A DNA stretch of 64,000 nt. It comes from Sphingomonas sp. Leaf34. Its GTDB lineage: Bacteria; Pseudomonadota; Alphaproteobacteria; Sphingomonadales; Sphingomonadaceae. The notes beneath the pieces were generated by a model. That model did not search any database. It saw only the letters and a program-made list of their open reading frames with translations, and was not told the origin of the DNA. Shown here one piece after another: positions 1,417-48,786 of this stretch (within the stretch, counting starts at the first letter, position 1; each line of letters begins with the position of its first letter). The position numbers were made by a program, and so were the translations under genes. Where the stretch lies: the NCBI RefSeq assembly GCF_001421805.1, contig NZ_LMLC01000005.1, positions 62,001 to 126,000 of the forward strand, given 5' to 3'.

Positions 1417-3372
1417 GTGATGCGAAGCGAGGCCAGAACCGCGACGTCAGGTGACGGAACGACATGGCGGATCGTCATGCTCGTCGCGATGGGGCTGCTT
1501 GGCGCGGCGGTTCTCGTCGCGCTCATCGTCACGCTGGGCAACGCCAACCGACAGCGCGATCGCGCGCTCGAATTACAGGCGCACAGCTATGACGTGATGA
1601 TCCTCGCCCGCACGCTGTCAGGGACGATCGCGCGGTCCGAGGCGTCGCTCGGCCGCTATGTCATCAGCGGCGACAAGCAGCTCGGCCAGCTGTACGTCGA
1701 CGAATGGCTGCTGGCGGGCACGCAGATCGACCGGCTCGACCAGGTCACCAACGACAATGCCGAGCAGCAACCGCGGATCGACCGGCTGCGCGCCGCATAC
1801 GACGCACGCGGCCGCGAGCTGTCGCTGACCGCGCTCAACACGAGCTATGGCAAGAACGGCCAGGCGCTCGCGCGCTATTACCAGGGGCGCAAAGCGCCGA
1901 CGCTCACCGAGATCAACACCACGCTCGACACGCTGATCGCGCGCGAACGTGCGCTGCTCGACGACCGGACGGCGGCGGCAATGGGCTCGGTCGAACGCTC
2001 CAGCTGGATCGCGGGGGTGCTCGCGGTGTTCGGCGTGCTGATCGTGCTGGGCGCGCTGATGCTCGGCTGGCTCACGATCCGGGCGGTCGGTGATCGCGCG
2101 GTCGCGCAGGCCGATGCCGAGCTCGAACGCGAGCGTGCCGACGAACTGACCGCCGCGGTCGCCACCGCCACCGCCGAACTGCGCGTGCAGGAAGCCAAGC
2201 TGCGGCAGATCCAGAAGATGGAGGCCGTCGGCCAGCTCACGGGTGGCATCGCGCACGACTTCAACAACATGCTGGCGGTGGTGCTCGGAGGGCTCGAACT
2301 TGCGCGCCGCTGTGTCGCGGTCGATCCTGTCACGGCGCGCCGCCACATCGACAGCGCGACCGAGGGCGCGAACCGGGCGGCAGCGCTGACCCGCCGCCTG
2401 CTCGCCTTCAGCCGCGAGGAGTCGTTGAAAACCGAGACGATCGACGCTGCCGCGCTGGTCTGCGGCATGTCCGACCTGCTCGATCGCACACTCGGCGATG
2501 CGATCACGGTCATCGTCCGCGACGATGCCGTCGGCGGCTGCATCCGCGCCGACCGTGTCCAGCTTGAGAATGCGGTCCTTAACCTTGCGGTCAACGCGCG
2601 CGATGCGATGAACGGCCGTGGCACGCTGACGGTCTCTACCGGCACGACGACATTGCTCGCAGAGCAGGTCGGACGGTGTGCGGCGGGCGACTATGTGACG
2701 ATCAGGGTCGATGACGACGGTTGTGGCATGGCCCCCGACATCGCCGAGCGCGTGTTCGAGCCGTTCTTCACTACCAAGGAAGTCGGCAAGGGGACCGGGC
2801 TTGGCCTGAGCCAGATTTTTGCGCTCGTCCAGCAGTTGCAGGGCGAGGTAGGCATCGTCTCCGCGCCGGGCGAAGGCACGGCGGTCACGCTCTATTTTCC
2901 GCGCGCCGCAGCACTGCCCGCCGTTCCGCTATCGACCGCCTTGGTCGCGACAGCCGAGCCGGCCGCACCGACGACGCCCGACCTGTTGCATATCCTGGTC
3001 GTCGAGGACGATCCGCGCGTGCTGGCGGCGACGACCGGCGCGCTGGAGGAGATCGGACATCACCCGATCGCGTGCGATGATCCGCTTGCCGCCCCTGCCC
3101 TGCTGGCGGAGAATCCGTCGATCGGGCTGATCATCTCCGACGTGCTGATGCCACGCCAGACCGGCCCCGAGATGATCGCCGCGCTTGCCCCGCTCTACCC
3201 GCATGTCGCAGTGCTGTTCGTCACCGGGTTCGCCGGCGAGGTGAACGTCGCGCAGTTCGGTGGGCACGAGGTCTTGCGCAAGCCGTTCACGCTCATGGCG
3301 CTGGAGCGCGCGGTCATGACGGCGCTGGCCACGGATCGCCCGATGGCACGCGACCGGATCGCCGCTGAATGA
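1417..3372 (+). CDS. Hybrid sensor histidine kinase with CHASE3-like sensor
   Basis: A 651-residue inner-membrane signalling protein. TM1 is at about residues 18-41. An extracytoplasmic helical region at about 45-195 has the CHASE3 look (SEASLGRYVISGD). TM2 is at about 196-220, followed by a charged coiled coil (about 225-265) and a HisKA box with the phospho-acceptor His280 in GGIAHDFNNML. The HATPase domain has its N box in NAVLNLAVNARDAM and G boxes DDDGCGM and GKGTGLGLSQIF. A C-terminal receiver domain (about 525-640) has Asp575 in IISDVLMP and the conserved Lys in LRKPF. The start is GTG followed at once by ATG. There is no adjacent response regulator, so the output is presumably a distant partner or phosphotransfer through its own receiver. 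The ligand is unknown. Confidence 0.9.
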   Translation: MMRSEARTATSGDGTTWRIVMLVAMGLLGAAVLVALIVTLGNANRQRDRALELQAHSYDVMILARTLSGTIARSEASLGRYVISGDKQLGQLYVDEWLLAGTQIDRLDQVTNDNAEQQPRIDRLRAAYDARGRELSLTALNTSYGKNGQALARYYQGRKAPTLTEINTTLDTLIARERALLDDRTAAAMGSVERSSWIAGVLAVFGVLIVLGALMLGWLTIRAVGDRAVAQADAELERERADELTAAVATATAELRVQEAKLRQIQKMEAVGQLTGGIAHDFNNMLAVVLGGLELARRCVAVDPVTARRHIDSATEGANRAAALTRRLLAFSREESLKTETIDAAALVCGMSDLLDRTLGDAITVIVRDDAVGGCIRADRVQLENAVLNLAVNARDAMNGRGTLTVSTGTTTLLAEQVGRCAAGDYVTIRVDDDGCGMAPDIAERVFEPFFTTKEVGKGTGLGLSQIFALVQQLQGEVGIVSAPGEGTAVTLYFPRAAALPAVPLSTALVATAEPAAPTTPDLLHILVVEDDPRVLAATTGALEEIGHHPIACDDPLAAPALLAENPSIGLIISDVLMPRQTGPEMIAALAPLYPHVAVLFVTGFAGEVNVAQFGGHEVLRKPFTLMALERAVMTALATDRPMARDRIAAE

Positions 3373-15389: not shown

Positions 15390-16043
15390 TCATCGCCCGC
15401 GGCTCAGATGCTCGACATCCCCCATGATTGAGTCGAGCGCGGTCTTGCTGGTATCGGTCTCGTGGTCGCGGCGTGACGGTAGCGACCCGTCGGTCAGGAT
15501 CGTCTCGAGCGCGACGCGACCACGCGCGACCCGGCTCTTGATCGTACCGACCGCGACGTTACAAATCTCAGCCGCCTCTTCATAGGCGAAGCCGCCGGCA
15601 CCGACCAGGATCAGCGCCTCACGCTGGGGCTGCGGGAGATGCATTAGCGCACGTTGCATATCGCCGAGCTCGACGTGCCGATCCTGGCTTGCCGGCGCGG
15701 CAAGGATGCGATCGGCGACCAAATCGTCCCACTCGCCCTTGAAGCGGGCGCGGCGCATCTGCGACAGATACAGGTTGCGCAGGATGATGAAGGTCCACGC
15801 CCGCATATTGGTACCCGCCTGGAAACGCAGCCGCGCCGCCCACGCCTTGAGCAGCGTTTCCTGAACCAGATCATCGGCAAGATCGCGGCTACCCGACAGC
15901 GAACGTCCAAACGCGCGAAGATGCGGGATCACTTGCGCGAGCTGAACCTTGAACTCCGCATCGGACAGCGAGACATGCTCCACCGGCGCGACGACTTCGT
16001 CGATGTCACCGTCGTCATCGGCGTGTGGAGCAGGCTGAATCAT
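15390..16043 (-). CDS. ecfG: General stress response sigma factor EcfG
   Basis: ECF sigma factor of 217 residues that directs RNA polymerase to GGAAC-N16/17-CGTT promoters. Region 2 is at about residues 35-105 (LSGSRDLADDLVQETLLKAWAA; MRAWTFIILRNLYLSQMRR) and region 4 at about 130-190 (LPQPQREALILVGAGGFAYEEAAEI and VGTIKSRVARGR). I start at ATG 16043 because TAGGA stands six bases before it; an ATG at 16073 has no ribosome binding site. Unlike the arrangement in many relatives, it is not in an operon with nepR: it follows phyR and a micropeptide gene on the minus strand. I see no GGAAC-type promoter directly before it. Confidence 0.92.
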   Translation of the reverse strand: MIQPAPHADDDGDIDEVVAPVEHVSLSDAEFKVQLAQVIPHLRAFGRSLSGSRDLADDLVQETLLKAWAARLRFQAGTNMRAWTFIILRNLYLSQMRRARFKGEWDDLVADRILAAPASQDRHVELGDMQRALMHLPQPQREALILVGAGGFAYEEAAEICNVAVGTIKSRVARGRVALETILTDGSLPSRRDHETDTSKTALDSIMGDVEHLSRGR

Positions 16044-16170
16044 GGAAATCCTATCAATTCCGATAGTCGTCATACTTTGCGGGCGTCGTCGCCGACCCGC
16101 GGGATATATCGCGTGACGACAGACATAGGCGCTCTAACCGCCAATGCCAGTCATCCGCGGTAAACCCAGG

Positions 16171-16308
16171 TCAGCGCAGGACGAGAAAACCAAAGATAAC
16201 GATTACGAGGACAAGCGAGATCGCCAGAATGTAGCGCGTAATGCCTGGTGTAGCGCCAGCGCGCGCGTCGTTCGTCTCGATGTGAATGCGTTCGTTCGGG
16301 TCAGCCAT
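16171..16308 (-). CDS. Single-TM micropeptide in the stress locus
   Basis: 45 residues: a polar N-terminus (MADPNERIHIETNDARAGA) and one strong transmembrane helix at about 26-44 (RYILAISLVLVIVIFGFLV) ending in Leu-Arg. It lies between phyR and ecfG on the same strand (gaps of 118 and 127 bases). No family is recognised. The start is ATG 16308; an in-frame extension to 16386 crosses a hairpin and is less likely. Position suggests expression with the stress regulators. Function unknown. Confidence 0.65.
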   Translation of the reverse strand: MADPNERIHIETNDARAGATPGITRYILAISLVLVIVIFGFLVLR

Positions 16309-16334
16309 AGCGAGTAAACCCTCGAAAACCGTTT

Positions 16335-16366
16335 TGGGTCCGCAACCATTTGTGGAAGCGGACCCA
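16335..16366. repeat. Perfect inverted repeat between phyR and the micropeptide gene
   Basis: TGGGTCCGC (16335-16343) and GCGGACCCA (16358-16366) are perfect 9-bp arms around 14 bases. Read on the minus strand the hairpin is followed by AAAACGG rather than a U-run, so it is not an ordinary terminator. It could be an RNA processing or stability element separating phyR from the downstream genes, or an operator. Confidence 0.6.
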
Positions 16367-16426
16367 GGATGCAGCGATACCGCCACACAATCAAGCGGTT
16401 GCCAGCGGTATTGAACGCCGCGGCCG

Positions 16427-17230
16427 TTAAATGGCGGGGACGGTCGCCTGATCGAAGAACAACGCCTGACTGATTGCGGCCTTCACGGTCGAGCGCTGGA
16501 ACGGCTTGGTGATCAGGAACGTCGGCTCAGGACGTTCACCGGTCAGCAAGCGCTCGGGGAAGGCGGTAATGAAGATCACCGGGACCTCGAACTCGGCCAG
16601 GATATCTTTGACGGCATCGATACCCGAACTGTCGTCGGCGAGCTGGATGTCGGCAAGAACGAGGCCGGGCCGCATTTCCATCGCCAGTGCCACTGCCTCG
16701 TCACGCGTGACGGCGACACCGGTGACGTCGTGGCCGAGATCGCGAACGATCGTCTCGATATCCATCGCGATGATCGGCTCGTCCTCGATGATGAGAACCT
16801 TGGCGCGCGTCTGGCTTTCGATTTCCGTCAACGCTTCGGCGACGAGGTCGTCGACCTCGCTCGTCTCGACCTCGATCAGATACGCGGCATCCTCGGGGGT
16901 GAAGCCTTCCATCGCGGTCAGCAGAAGCGCCTGACGTGACAGCGGCGTCATCCGCGAAAGCCGTGCGCGCGCGACAGCTTCATGGCCTTCCGCATCATTC
17001 GCGCCCTCGTCGGCGAGCTCGTCGAAATTCGCCGAGTTCCAGATACCCTGGAACATGCGGTAAAGTCCGAGACGGGGATCGACGTCACGCGGAAATTCCT
17101 CGGGCGCGGCAACGATCGCCTCGAGCGTGGCGCGCACGTATTTATCACCGTGCATCTGACTGCCGGTCAGGGCCCGGCCATAGCGCCGCAAAAAGGGAAG
17201 GTGCGGTGCAAGTTGCTGTCCAAGCGACAT
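16427..17230 (-). CDS. phyR: General stress response regulator PhyR
   Basis: 267 residues: an N-terminal sigma-like output domain (about 1-130) that mimics EcfG regions 2 and 4, joined to a C-terminal receiver domain (about 143-260). The receiver has the acidic pair in IIEDEPI, the phospho-acceptor Asp194 in LADIQLADD, the conserved Thr in IFITAFPE and Lys in LITKPFQ. When phosphorylated it binds NepR and frees EcfG (partner switch). It is divergent from nepR across a 312-base region. Confidence 0.95.
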   Translation of the reverse strand: MSLGQQLAPHLPFLRRYGRALTGSQMHGDKYVRATLEAIVAAPEEFPRDVDPRLGLYRMFQGIWNSANFDELADEGANDAEGHEAVARARLSRMTPLSRQALLLTAMEGFTPEDAAYLIEVETSEVDDLVAEALTEIESQTRAKVLIIEDEPIIAMDIETIVRDLGHDVTGVAVTRDEAVALAMEMRPGLVLADIQLADDSSGIDAVKDILAEFEVPVIFITAFPERLLTGERPEPTFLITKPFQRSTVKAAISQALFFDQATVPAI

Positions 17231-17398: not shown

Positions 17399-17424
17399 GG
17401 AACTAACGACAGCGTGTTTGGTTT
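17399..17424 (+). promoter_or_regulatory. EcfG-type promoter for nepR
   Basis: GGAAC at 17399-17403, a 17-base spacer, then GTTT at 17421-17424, about 120 bases before the nepR start. This fits the alphaproteobacterial GSR consensus GGAAC-N16/17-(C)GTT and implies autoregulation of the nepR-phyP operon. The 312-base phyR/nepR gap holds no other element I can name; I found no matching motif facing phyR. Confidence 0.75.
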
Positions 17425-17542
17425 CACGAACATCTTTGGCGACTCCGCCGCCCGCTTGATATCCGTCGAGCAGGCGGCGTGTATCGTCTCTATGTGACAT
17501 GATTTGCCAGATGGCTCGGTTCGCGTCGTGCAGGGGGAAGTT

Positions 17543-17707
17543 TTGAGTTTGGGCCACGACACGCAGAATACGGTGCCTGCCACGAAACCCGCGCAGGTTC
17601 CGGATAAGGACCAGCAAATGGGATCGGCGTTGCGTTCGGTATATCAGAAGACCGTCGACGAAGCGATCCCGGACGATCTGCTCGACCTTCTCGGCAAGCT
17701 CGACTGA
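17543..17707 (+). CDS. nepR: Anti-sigma factor NepR
   Basis: 54 residues from a TTG start at 17543 that follows a purine-rich GGGGGAAG; a longer in-frame ATG at 17504 would add 13 residues. The two-helix NepR core is at the C-terminus (MGSALRSVYQKTVDEAIPDD, then LLDLLGKLD). It binds and inhibits EcfG, and is removed by phosphorylated PhyR. It lies 11 bases before the PhyP-like gene, so the two form an operon under the EcfG-type promoter at 17399. Confidence 0.9.
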   Translation: MSLGHDTQNTVPATKPAQVPDKDQQMGSALRSVYQKTVDEAIPDDLLDLLGKLD

Positions 17708-17718
17708 GCGCGGGCCGC

Positions 17719-19332
17719 ATGGCCTCGCAATCGATGCCGGATAGCGCGCCAACGCCGTCATCGGACGTCGGCGGACCAGGGGAAACGCGTCTGACGGCCG
17801 CAATGGGACGCCTGCCTACGGGCGCGAAGCTGTTCCTTATCTTGAGCGCCGCGTTGCTCCCACTGGCGCTGATCGCAGTGTTTGCCACGTTCCAGACCAC
17901 ACGGCTTGCCGATACCGAAGCCCGTGCGCGTCTGCGCGTTACGGCGAACGAAAGCGCGCGCGCGATCGCGATCGAGCTGGTCGGCGATATGACCGCGCTC
18001 CGGGTGGCGGTGAACGCGCTGGGTAACGACCCCGCCGATGCACCGAGTTGCGCGCGTGCGCAGGGCGTCTTCGCGCAGCAATCCTCCGCGGGAACGCGTT
18101 TCGTCATCACCGACCGCGACGGCACCGTCCTGTGCGGAACACCGATCCCCAATCCCGTCACGCTGCATCAGGACGATATGCCGATCACCGCGGCAATCAT
18201 TCCGCGTCGCGGTCTTGTACTGGCAATCTCCGGCCCCGGTGGCGATACGTCGGCGCGCGCCTATTTCCCGCAGCCGTTTCTCGAACGGATCGGGCGTCCG
18301 TCGAGCCGTGCGCTGATCTTCGGCAGCGCACTGGTTCTCGATCAGGATGCGTTGACGCTCGAGACGATCCCCGACGAGCGTCCGCTCGACCGCATGGAGA
18401 CGATGCGGACTGATCTGGGGATCGCCGGCATTGCCTTGCGCACCAGCATCCGCAGCGCTCCGGTGACGTCGTCGCTGGTCGTCGCGATGCTGTTACCGCT
18501 GCTGATGTGGATCGCCGCGGCGAGCATCGCCTGGTTCGTCGTCGACCGGCTCCTGATCCGACCGCTACGCCGACTGCGGGGCGCGGTCGCGGCGTTCACG
18601 CCGGGCGAGGCGCTCGATTTGGGCGCCGTCCGTACATTGCCTGCGCAGGAAATCCGCGAGCTCGGCGATACCTTCCAGGCGATCAGCCAGACTGTGGCGC
18701 TGCACGAAGCGGGCCTTGCCGAAGGGCTGGTGCGCCAGACCAAGCTGACGCGCGAAGTCCATCATCGCGTAAAGAACAACCTGCAGGTCATTTCCAGCCT
18801 GATCAACTTCCATGCGCGCAGTGCGCCGAGCGCGGACGCGACCGCCGCCTACGCCTCGATCCAGCGCCGCGTCGATGCATTGGCGGTCGTCCACCGCAAT
18901 CACTTCGCCGAACTCGAAGAAAACCGTGGCCTTAACCTGCGGACGATGATCGGCGAACTCTCGGCGAACATCCGCGCGACCGCCTCCGATCGCTCGCATG
19001 GCCTGGGCATCACGCTCGACATCGATCCGTACCTGGTCAATCAGGACGTCGCGGTCGCGATCGCGTTCCTCGCCACCGAGACGATCGAGCTGGCGATGAC
19101 ATGCGATCCCGCCGCACAGATCCGGATCGTCGTCAAACCGTCGGACCTGCCCGATCGTGCGCTGCTCCGCGTCGTATCGCGTGCGCTGGTCGAAAGCGAT
19201 GCGCTGCGCGAGGCGGCGTCGCGCTATGGCCGCGTCATGGAAGGCCTGTCGCGGCAGTTGCGCGCCCCGTTGCATCACGACCCGCTGGTTGGCGCGTATG
19301 AAATCGCATTCGCTGTTAAAGGTCGCGATTAA
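17719..19332 (+). CDS. phyP: PhyP-like HWE/HisKA_2 membrane protein with degraded ATPase domain
   Basis: 537 residues: TM1 (about 36-58), an extracytoplasmic sensor region (about 60-250), TM2 (about 255-280), a HAMP-like linker and a HisKA_2 box REVHHRVKNNLQVISSL with its histidines at 348/349. The ATPase part is degenerate: the N box, normally NELVTNALKH, reads TETIELAMTCD (near 453), and the glycine-rich ATP lid is not recognisable. PhyP of Sphingomonas melonis is reported to act as a phosphatase on PhyR, and an intact H box with lost ATP binding fits that. It is directly downstream of nepR, under EcfG control. Confidence 0.85.
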   Translation: MASQSMPDSAPTPSSDVGGPGETRLTAAMGRLPTGAKLFLILSAALLPLALIAVFATFQTTRLADTEARARLRVTANESARAIAIELVGDMTALRVAVNALGNDPADAPSCARAQGVFAQQSSAGTRFVITDRDGTVLCGTPIPNPVTLHQDDMPITAAIIPRRGLVLAISGPGGDTSARAYFPQPFLERIGRPSSRALIFGSALVLDQDALTLETIPDERPLDRMETMRTDLGIAGIALRTSIRSAPVTSSLVVAMLLPLLMWIAAASIAWFVVDRLLIRPLRRLRGAVAAFTPGEALDLGAVRTLPAQEIRELGDTFQAISQTVALHEAGLAEGLVRQTKLTREVHHRVKNNLQVISSLINFHARSAPSADATAAYASIQRRVDALAVVHRNHFAELEENRGLNLRTMIGELSANIRATASDRSHGLGITLDIDPYLVNQDVAVAIAFLATETIELAMTCDPAAQIRIVVKPSDLPDRALLRVVSRALVESDALREAASRYGRVMEGLSRQLRAPLHHDPLVGAYEIAFAVKGRD

Positions 19333-19400: not shown

Positions 19401-19425
19401 GGAACGGATCAGCGCGATCGCCGTT
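19401..19425 (+). promoter_or_regulatory. Perfect EcfG-type promoter for a small RNA
   Basis: GGAAC at 19401-19405, spacer of exactly 16 bases, CGTT at 19422-19425. The predicted start point, about 6-8 bases on, is just ahead of the first hairpin of the RNA at 19430-19527. The entericidin gene further down is separated by the terminator-like hairpin. Confidence 0.75.
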
Positions 19426-19429
19426 CAAC

Positions 19430-19527
19430 ATTTCGGACAGCGACTTTATGCCCCCCCGCTCTCGCTGTCCAAGTCATAGGCCCGGAAGCAGCACCCTCCC
19501 CCCCCCGGTGATGCTTCCGGGCCTTTA
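19430..19527 (+). ncRNA. Candidate stress-induced small RNA with two C-rich loops
   Basis: Two perfect hairpins follow the promoter at 19401. Hairpin 1 pairs GGACAGCGA (19435-19443) with TCGCTGTCC (19462-19470) and exposes an 18-base loop holding seven consecutive C. Hairpin 2 pairs GGCCCGGAAGCA (19479-19490) with TGCTTCCGGGCC (19512-19523); an inner CACC/GGTG stem leaves a loop of CTCCCCCCCCC, and TTTAT follows, so it doubles as a terminator. The predicted RNA is about 95 nt. No credible reading frame fills it. C-rich loops suit pairing with G-rich ribosome binding sites. Caulobacter GsrN, also GSR-activated, works through a C-rich loop; homology to it is not claimed. Confidence 0.72.
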
Positions 19528-19656
19528 TCGTTCGATCGGCCGTGACGGTTCGCATGCCGCGCGAAATAGCGGCATTCTGGTTTCGTGATCGGAACGAATA
19601 CGCCCCCCGAACATTGCACCTCCGGTGGCATTCAAGCCCGTCTTGGAGGAAGTTAT

Positions 19657-19791
19657 ATGCGTAAGTTGGTTGGACTGGTCGTCGCCGCGGGCGCGCTCAT
19701 GGTGTCGGCATGCAACACGGTTGAGGGTGCAGGCAAGGACGTCGCGTCGGCAGGCAAGACCGTCGCAAAGACCGCAGACAACGCCAAGTAA
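19657..19791 (+). CDS. Entericidin-type small lipoprotein
   Basis: 44 residues: signal peptide with lipobox VSAC (lipidated Cys19), then a short Gly/Ala/Lys-rich tail (NTVEGAGKDVASAGKTVAKT) typical of the entericidin A/B family. The start is ATG 19657 after a strong GGAGGA. A GGAAC lies at 19595-19599 with CATT 16 bases on, a one-mismatch EcfG-type promoter, so stress control is possible but unproven. A strong terminator follows at 19814. Confidence 0.85.
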   Translation: MRKLVGLVVAAGALMVSACNTVEGAGKDVASAGKTVAKTADNAK

Positions 19792-48760: not shown

Positions 48761-48786
48761 AACGGACTCGGTGTGTCGCAAGTTCC
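48761..48786 (-). promoter_or_regulatory. EcfG-type promoter for the Gly/Tyr-rich lipoprotein
   Basis: On the minus strand GGAAC (48786-48782), a 17-base spacer and CGTT (48764-48761), about 54 bases before the ATG at 48707, giving a 5' UTR of roughly 45 nt. It matches the GSR consensus seen before nepR and the small RNA. Confidence 0.7.

Follow-up and report, generated by a model that had tools for sequence, protein, structure and literature searches.

The window analysed here, a stretch of 64,000 nucleotides (nt) from contig NZ_LMLC01000005.1 of Sphingomonas sp. Leaf34, was found to contain, next to the genes of the general stress response (GSR), an element that is well supported, as a prediction, as a regulatory RNA gene driven by the sigma factor EcfG. 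Comparison of its homologues likewise gives good support for a new RNA family in sphingomonads. The structure of the gene, its conservation, the covariation of its stems, the register of its promoter and its linkage to the stress locus can be read from the sequences compared. The element is made up of the following features.

19401..19425, plus strand: EcfG-type promoter GGAAC-N16-CGTT, read from the sequence and kept in 108 of 109 distinct homologues
About 19432..19527, plus strand: predicted small RNA of about 96 nt, its start placed from the position of the -10 box
19435..19470, plus strand: hairpin 1, with a 9-bp stem of which 9/9 pairs have double-sided changes among 77 family sequences
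19451..19457, plus strand: C7 tract of loop 1, proposed pairing site (C-run of at least six in 108/109 members)
19478..19524, plus strand: hairpin 2, with a 13-bp outer and a 4-bp inner stem; followed by a short U tail, it is probably an intrinsic terminator
19498..19506, plus strand: C9 tract of loop 2, second proposed pairing site (C-run of at least five in 108/109 members)

An earlier reading of this DNA, made from the sequence only, had described the promoter, both hairpins and the C7 and C9 loops, and all of these were found where it had placed them. The promoter comprises GGAAC at 19401-19405 and, after a spacer of 16 nt, CGTT at 19422-19425. Stem 1 is formed by GGACAGCGA (19435-19443) pairing with TCGCTGTCC (19462-19470) over 9 bp, and stem 2 by AGGCCCGGAAGCA (19478-19490) pairing with TGCTTCCGGGCCT (19512-19524) over 13 bp, enclosing an inner stem of CACC (19493-19496) with GGTG (19507-19510). 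The sequence-only reading gave the same size for stem 1 and for the inner stem and counted 12 bp in the second stem, which is one pair short. The TTTAT that it saw behind this stem is present at 19524-19528, with its first T belonging to the stem as the last base, and its estimate of about 95 nt for the RNA agrees with ours. The C9 of loop 2 together with the preceding CCU resembles the CCUCC of the 16S rRNA 3’ end. A minimum free energy of -49 kcal/mol was calculated for a 101-nt stretch, compared to a mean of -25.2 (sd 2.67) for shuffled sequences (z = -8.9), with none of 200 shuffles folding as well. The genome holds one full copy, the 41 other BLAST matches all having E values of at least 0.14. 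A small open reading frame (ORF) within the element was considered and rejected; many family members have TTTTG in place of the AUG of loop 1, and a coding function is unlikely because the lengths of the C-runs vary base by base.

Of the 61 genus genomes, 60 (that of Leaf34 among them) have the element according to BLAST searches with a query that included the promoter; the one without a match (G007) is 84% complete. In a MAFFT alignment of the 30 best-matching loci, 99.2% of the cells in the stems were found to pair and double-sided changes were present in 7 of 25 pairs, amounting to 34 double-sided cells, whereas shuffles gave 8.3 and slid controls no more than 6. Several compensated versions of stem 1 occur across these genus loci. 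A first covariance model, built on the RNA with the promoter excluded, was searched against 249 family genomes; 97 gave a match at E<=0.1, of which 82 scored at least 40 bits. In an alignment of 77 family sequences, which was fitted to the structure and hence leans towards it, double-sided changes were found in 25/25 modelled pairs, including 16/16 of helices 2 and 3, with 292 double-sided cells, whereas shuffles had 68.7 and slid controls 24-65. Covariation of the stems, proposed earlier as a check, was thereby observed in both alignments.

A second covariance model, built from the 77 sequences and reaching more diverged members, matched 89 of 296 genomes of the order at E<=0.001. Hosts among the matches listed with the exact pattern were Sphingomonas, Stakelama, Hephaestia, Sphingosinicella, Sphingomicrobium, Sphingorhabdus and Parasphingopyxis. 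From a sample of 385 genomes of the class, searched with strict filters, three were matched, two of them of the genus Sphingomonas and the third (L267) at 37.9 bits without an EcfG promoter. At the search sensitivity used the RNA family looks confined to Sphingomonadaceae, because the class sample gave the own genus and this one promoterless match. The L267 sequence (about 3058-3156), from a genome of another family of the class, itself resembles an RNA, comprising a terminator and a pair of C-rich hairpins.

Thirty family genomes without a strong match to the first model were searched again with laxer filters and inspected beside tatC. Diverged copies of the RNA gene were recognised by eye in two of these (G084, locus L379, and G089, locus L380), and in a third (G063, locus L377, 41 bits) a match beside tatC had an imperfect promoter and a hairpin 1 lacking a clear C-tract. 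No such element was recognised by either approach in the remaining genomes of the 30, and the tatC-anchored inspection revealed an EcfG site followed by two C-rich hairpins in G084 only. Besides the main copy of the RNA gene, the family genome G284 has a second one, diverged and preceded by an EcfG promoter of its own (L118, C1:2293344-2293441).

The promoter motif alone is weak evidence, because two exact matches to GGAAC-N16/17-CGTT were found in the window against a chance expectation of 0.94. The control by EcfG proposed in the sequence-only reading is supported instead by promoters conserved in register. As the first covariance model left the promoter out, the presence of the promoter before its matches is an independent check. 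It was present in 28 of the 29 best family loci besides that of Leaf34, the 29th being a truncated locus that was read at the wrong offset. Among a further 60 fetched family places, GGAAC-N16/17-NGTT was found in register in 50 of the 51 scoring at least 40 bits, the sole exception (L104) having a degenerate promoter, and an EcfG promoter was found in 0/9 of the matches below 32 bits. Twenty further matches of the second model, from the class and order searches, had a promoter in 16 cases; three of the other four (L260, L264, L265) resemble bare terminators and the fourth is L267. For the 109 distinct members inspected, genus BLAST loci included, the spacer was 16 nt in 102 and 17 nt in six, and the distance between promoter and modelled RNA start (by our anchoring) was 3 nt in 95 of the 108 promoter-bearing members. 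In the alignment of genus loci the EcfG -35 box and the length of the spacer are constant while the spacer sequence is variable. The second exact match of the window lies at 48761-48786 on the minus strand, with an ORF of the same strand running into a Gly/Tyr-rich lipoprotein-like protein; it may be the promoter of a GSR gene or a chance match.

The RNA gene is situated between the kinase gene phyP/phyT and an entericidin gene, in a neighbourhood composed as follows.

15390..16073, minus strand: EcfG-type sigma factor gene (Pfam sigma-70 regions 2 and 4; assigned to EcfG by its locus)
16427..17230, minus strand: phyR, anti-anti-sigma response regulator (Pfam PhyR_sigma2, PhyR_sigma-like and Response_reg)
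17399..17423, plus strand: EcfG-like site upstream of nepR, GGAAC-N16-GGTT, with a counterpart at nepR of S. melonis
17533..17537, plus strand: G5 tract in the ribosome-binding site of nepR, candidate pairing site for the C loops
17543..17707, plus strand: nepR, anti-sigma factor, with a TTG start of our choice, candidate target (Pfam NepR)
17719..19332, plus strand: phyP/phyT, a kinase-type gene (HWE/HisKA_2) directly before the RNA gene (Pfam and position)
19591..19615, plus strand: EcfG-like site of the entericidin gene, GGAAC-N16-CATT, with a similar site at S. melonis #1442
19657..19791, plus strand: entericidin-like small lipoprotein gene (Pfam Entericidin, 23.7 bits, cut-off 23.3)

The position behind the stress-response genes, also remarked on earlier, holds in the comparison. 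The stop codon of a histidine kinase gene was found upstream on the same strand in 28/28 parsed genus loci (two of the 30 loci could not be parsed), and among the 66 named loci whose upstream DNA was long enough, 58 have phyP no more than 700 nt away on that side. Twelve diverged loci lack a recognised stress gene over approximately 3 kb around the RNA gene; downstream of it the entericidin gene and tatCBA-scpBA were found in eight of them and tatCBA-scpBA alone in a ninth. The keeping of these downstream genes in the diverged loci supports the orthology of the RNA gene. Entericidin was recognised in 34 of 73 named loci, a figure that is an undercount, owing to stop-to-stop frames and a strict position rule, and that supports no claim made here. 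The list of EcfG sites of S. melonis Fr1 includes #1444 (NepR) and #1442, according to the available text of the study (PMC6599016). Between ecfG and phyR lies a small ORF without a Pfam match (16171-16386, minus strand), of which 53 related loci have a recognisable version. Judging from gene order its counterpart may be S. melonis #1446, for which an EcfG-like site is listed (PMC6599016, available text).

Both loops retain their C-runs while the sequences of the stems change, in the family and in the diverged loci alike (the run in loop 2 varying in length between 4 and 13), and this is the pattern of two putative exposed pairing sites held out by hairpins. Pairing of such sites with G-tracts in start regions is to be expected from the analogy with the RNAs GsrN and NfeR1, and the C loops probably grip G-rich start regions of mRNAs. 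We consider it probable that the element as a whole functions as a trans-acting small RNA (sRNA) of about 96 nt, transcribed by way of EcfG, with C-tract loops acting on G-tracts of mRNAs; transcription, dependence on EcfG, pairing and targets are what we infer from the features described. RNA polymerase bearing EcfG would transcribe the gene, and the transcript would end at hairpin 2, exposing two C-tract loops. These would pair with G-tracts at or near ribosome-binding sites, altering the translation or stability of the mRNAs under stress. The effect would be mostly repressing, the RNA being a mimic of the anti-Shine-Dalgarno sequence. The best single target lead would be nepR, repression of which would weaken the EcfG-driven negative feedback exerted by NepR, with dnaJ as a second lead.

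Two points weigh against this explanation. Only a short U-tract (TTTATC) follows hairpin 2, and the stem of several relatives is followed by A residues, for which reasons termination and Hfq binding are uncertain. The second concerns an RNA-sequencing study and its RNA preparation; RNeasy preparation loses RNAs shorter than about 200 nt. No sRNA is mentioned in the available main text of the RNA-sequencing paper on the GSR of S. melonis Fr1, and the RNA of that study was prepared with RNeasy (PMC6599016), which may be the reason why the RNA went unseen there.

The kind of RNA described here is already known. GsrN of Caulobacter crescentus is an sRNA with a C-rich loop that depends on an EcfG-class sigma factor and whose homologues are typically located near GSR genes. 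It has six Cs in its 5’ loop, and 31 co-purified targets with G-rich predicted sites have been described, with katG verified; its authors predicted such RNAs in other Alphaproteobacteria on the basis of transcription, an EcfG site and locus (PMC5869019, available text). The sphingomonad element has a near-consensus EcfG site upstream in 108 of the 109 distinct members, is close to the ecfG-phyR locus in the window (with phyP just upstream in the 58 of 66 named loci given above) and shares the C-rich 5’ loop, with C7 in Leaf34 and a run of at least six in nearly all members. It is, by prediction, functionally GsrN-like. In contrast, GsrN of C. crescentus lies far from the GSR locus and activates katG, its BLASTn matches are limited to Caulobacteraceae, and the available text of that paper does not describe a second C-tract in the terminator loop (PMC5869019), whereas the sphingomonad RNA is placed, in the window, within the GSR locus and has a C-tract in loop 2.

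The element could also be a true orthologue of GsrN and of ReC64 of Rhizobium etli that has diverged beyond recognition and ought to be named GsrN. We regard this as quite possible, if on balance doubtful, and it is compatible with the trans-acting sRNA preferred here since it concerns the name and not the mechanism. ReC64 is a non-coding RNA whose gene follows that of a kinase; it has an EcfG promoter, its expression depends on EcfG1, and conservation has been reported for R. etli CIAT 652 and R. leguminosarum 3841 (PMC3892343, available text). By its description, which is the basis of this comparison, it has the same position behind a histidine kinase gene and the same type of promoter as the sphingomonad RNA. 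Orthology with GsrN is opposed by the strictly filtered search of the 385 class genomes, which gave two genomes of the own genus and the promoterless 37.9-bit match, and by the statement of the GsrN authors that the sphingomonad Erythrobacter litoralis has no gsrN-like gene (PMC5869019, available text).

Two other known RNAs share some of these features. NfeR1/alpha-r14 of Sinorhizobium has three hairpins with unpaired anti-Shine-Dalgarno motifs that redundantly silence mRNAs at their start regions, but it possesses the motif CCUCCUCCC and a sigma-70 promoter under LsrB and NtrC (PMC10746234, available text) and not an EcfG-type promoter. Among sphingomonads, the characterised trans-acting sRNA SuhB of Sphingopyxis granuli has a 5’ untranslated region as its target, is 61 nt long compared to the approximately 96 nt predicted here, depends on Hfq, is controlled by growth rate and takes part in catabolite repression (PMC6563040, available text). 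Membership in a known Rfam family was rejected, as no match in the window reached its gathering score and 20 diverged loci gave 0 Rfam matches. The best sub-threshold match was to ar14 (RF02344), at 25.5 bits with a gathering score of 58.8, and ar7 (RF02342) was matched at 21 bits with a gathering score of 60. No description of the sphingomonad element was found in the open-licence literature searched, in agreement with the sequence-only reading, which nevertheless implied a greater distance from known RNAs than ReC64 and the predictions of the GsrN paper allow. What is new is the sphingomonad family, the second C-tract loop and the two target leads.

Alternatively, the element may be a leader or attenuator of the entericidin gene, with transcription from the EcfG promoter passing through both hairpins and read-through being tuned. 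This accords with the RNA gene being directly upstream of a small lipoprotein-like gene of the same strand in 26 of 28 parsed genus loci, with entericidin being kept behind it in 8 of the 12 diverged loci without a recognised stress gene, and with the weak U-tract after hairpin 2. However, the entericidin gene has an EcfG-like site of its own (19591) between the terminator and its start, and such a site was found in 85 of 106 related loci using a permissive pattern without a chance control. No entericidin match was seen close to the RNA in the diverged loci L251, L256, L263 and L266, and two conserved C-tracts would be needless for a leader, so we judge this explanation unlikely. That hairpin 2 is simply the shared terminator of the nepR-phyP operon and hairpin 1 mere decoration is highly improbable, for although phyP immediately precedes the element and a GC-rich stem of 13 bp with a U-tail is normal for a terminator, hairpin 1 is kept as well as hairpin 2 as judged by covariation, the promoter keeps a narrow register, and in diverged genera the element persists where phyP is not recognised beside it.

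The sphingomonad GSR has been dissected at the protein level, with NepR, PhyT and NepR2 as feedback regulators (PMC6599016, available text), and no RNA arm of it was found in the open-licence literature searched. If the trans-acting sRNA is confirmed, an sRNA gene that is near-universal in the genus and situated amid the EcfG locus would be this missing arm, and the GsrN concept would be extended to sphingomonads. Two C-tract loops set against G-tract start sites would offer a simple model of its action.

Both target leads, nepR and dnaJ, are suggestive only. For nepR, G-runs were counted in 80 named loci and in that of Leaf34 (L001) under a single rule, which for every gene used, among the in-frame starts close to the expected position, the one preceded by the longest G-run; the loci are related, and the counts are hence non-independent. 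By this rule nepR, recognised in 47 of the 81 loci, has a run of at least four Gs in 46/47 and of at least five in 33/47. A run of at least five was found in 10/551 start regions of ten neighbouring genes, distributed as ecfG 4/52, the small ORF 0/53, phyR 0/54, phyP 0/61, entericidin 0/63, tatC 1/64, tatB 0/61, tatA 0/58, scpB 4/46 and scpA 1/39. The small ORF is a poor control, because 38 of its 53 loci have no usable start or no G under this rule; the count without it is 10/498. The start chosen by the rule for nepR was TTG or GTG in 45/47. The combination at 17533-17545 of a G-tract ribosome-binding site with a weak TTG or GTG start, present in most of the 47 loci, is unusual whatever its cause.

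Several results count against nepR as a target. With automatic start calls the contrast weakens, a run of at least five Gs being found in 14/36 for nepR compared to 9/50 for the small ORF (scpB 3/42, ecfG 2/42, other neighbours 0 or 1), although many of the nepR starts called in this way were judged by eye to be miscalled. The start regions of the Leaf34 genome were also ranked by unconstrained duplex energy with each loop, using 1421 called start regions in 1.596 Mb (41%) of the genome, and nepR ranked 295th with loop 1 and 215th with loop 2. Duplex energy therefore does not single nepR out, and this lead comes from the comparison of loci only. In addition, several genera with diverged copies of the RNA have a nepR without a G-tract. 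Forty outlying carrier genomes were examined, and 39 of them gave 46 nepR-family matches (counting paralogues), 26 with at least four Gs and 11 with at least five. The corresponding figures are 8 and 5 for 24 matches from 24 of the 30 genomes without a strong match to the first model, and the difference between the two sets of genomes is confounded by a different type of NepR (judged by eye) in 19 of these 24.

Tentatively, and with considerable doubt, we suggest that the RNA controls the stress switch, its C-loops acting on the G-tract ribosome-binding site of nepR so that less anti-sigma factor is made during EcfG activity. The nepR gene itself is probably transcribed by EcfG. If the pairing is true, it would have shaped the nepR start (AGGGGGA and, as start codon, a weak TTG or GTG), and the RNA would be placed inside the sigma/anti-sigma switch; no RNA control of an alphaproteobacterial partner switch of this type was found in the open-licence literature searched.

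The dnaJ gene is the second lead, less examined than nepR. It forms the best predicted loop-1 duplex of the 1421 start regions (-30.0 kcal/mol), with G7 before its start. Among 28 genus loci (L348-L376, 28 of the 29 having enough upstream sequence) the dnaJ start region contains at least five consecutive Gs in 13 and at least four in 23, compared to 59 and 197, respectively, of the 1421 genes of the Leaf34 genome as a baseline. Across these 1421 genes, runs of at least five Gs are about twice as frequent in start regions as further upstream (59 genes compared to 19-34 at four offsets), an excess that Shine-Dalgarno sites alone would explain.
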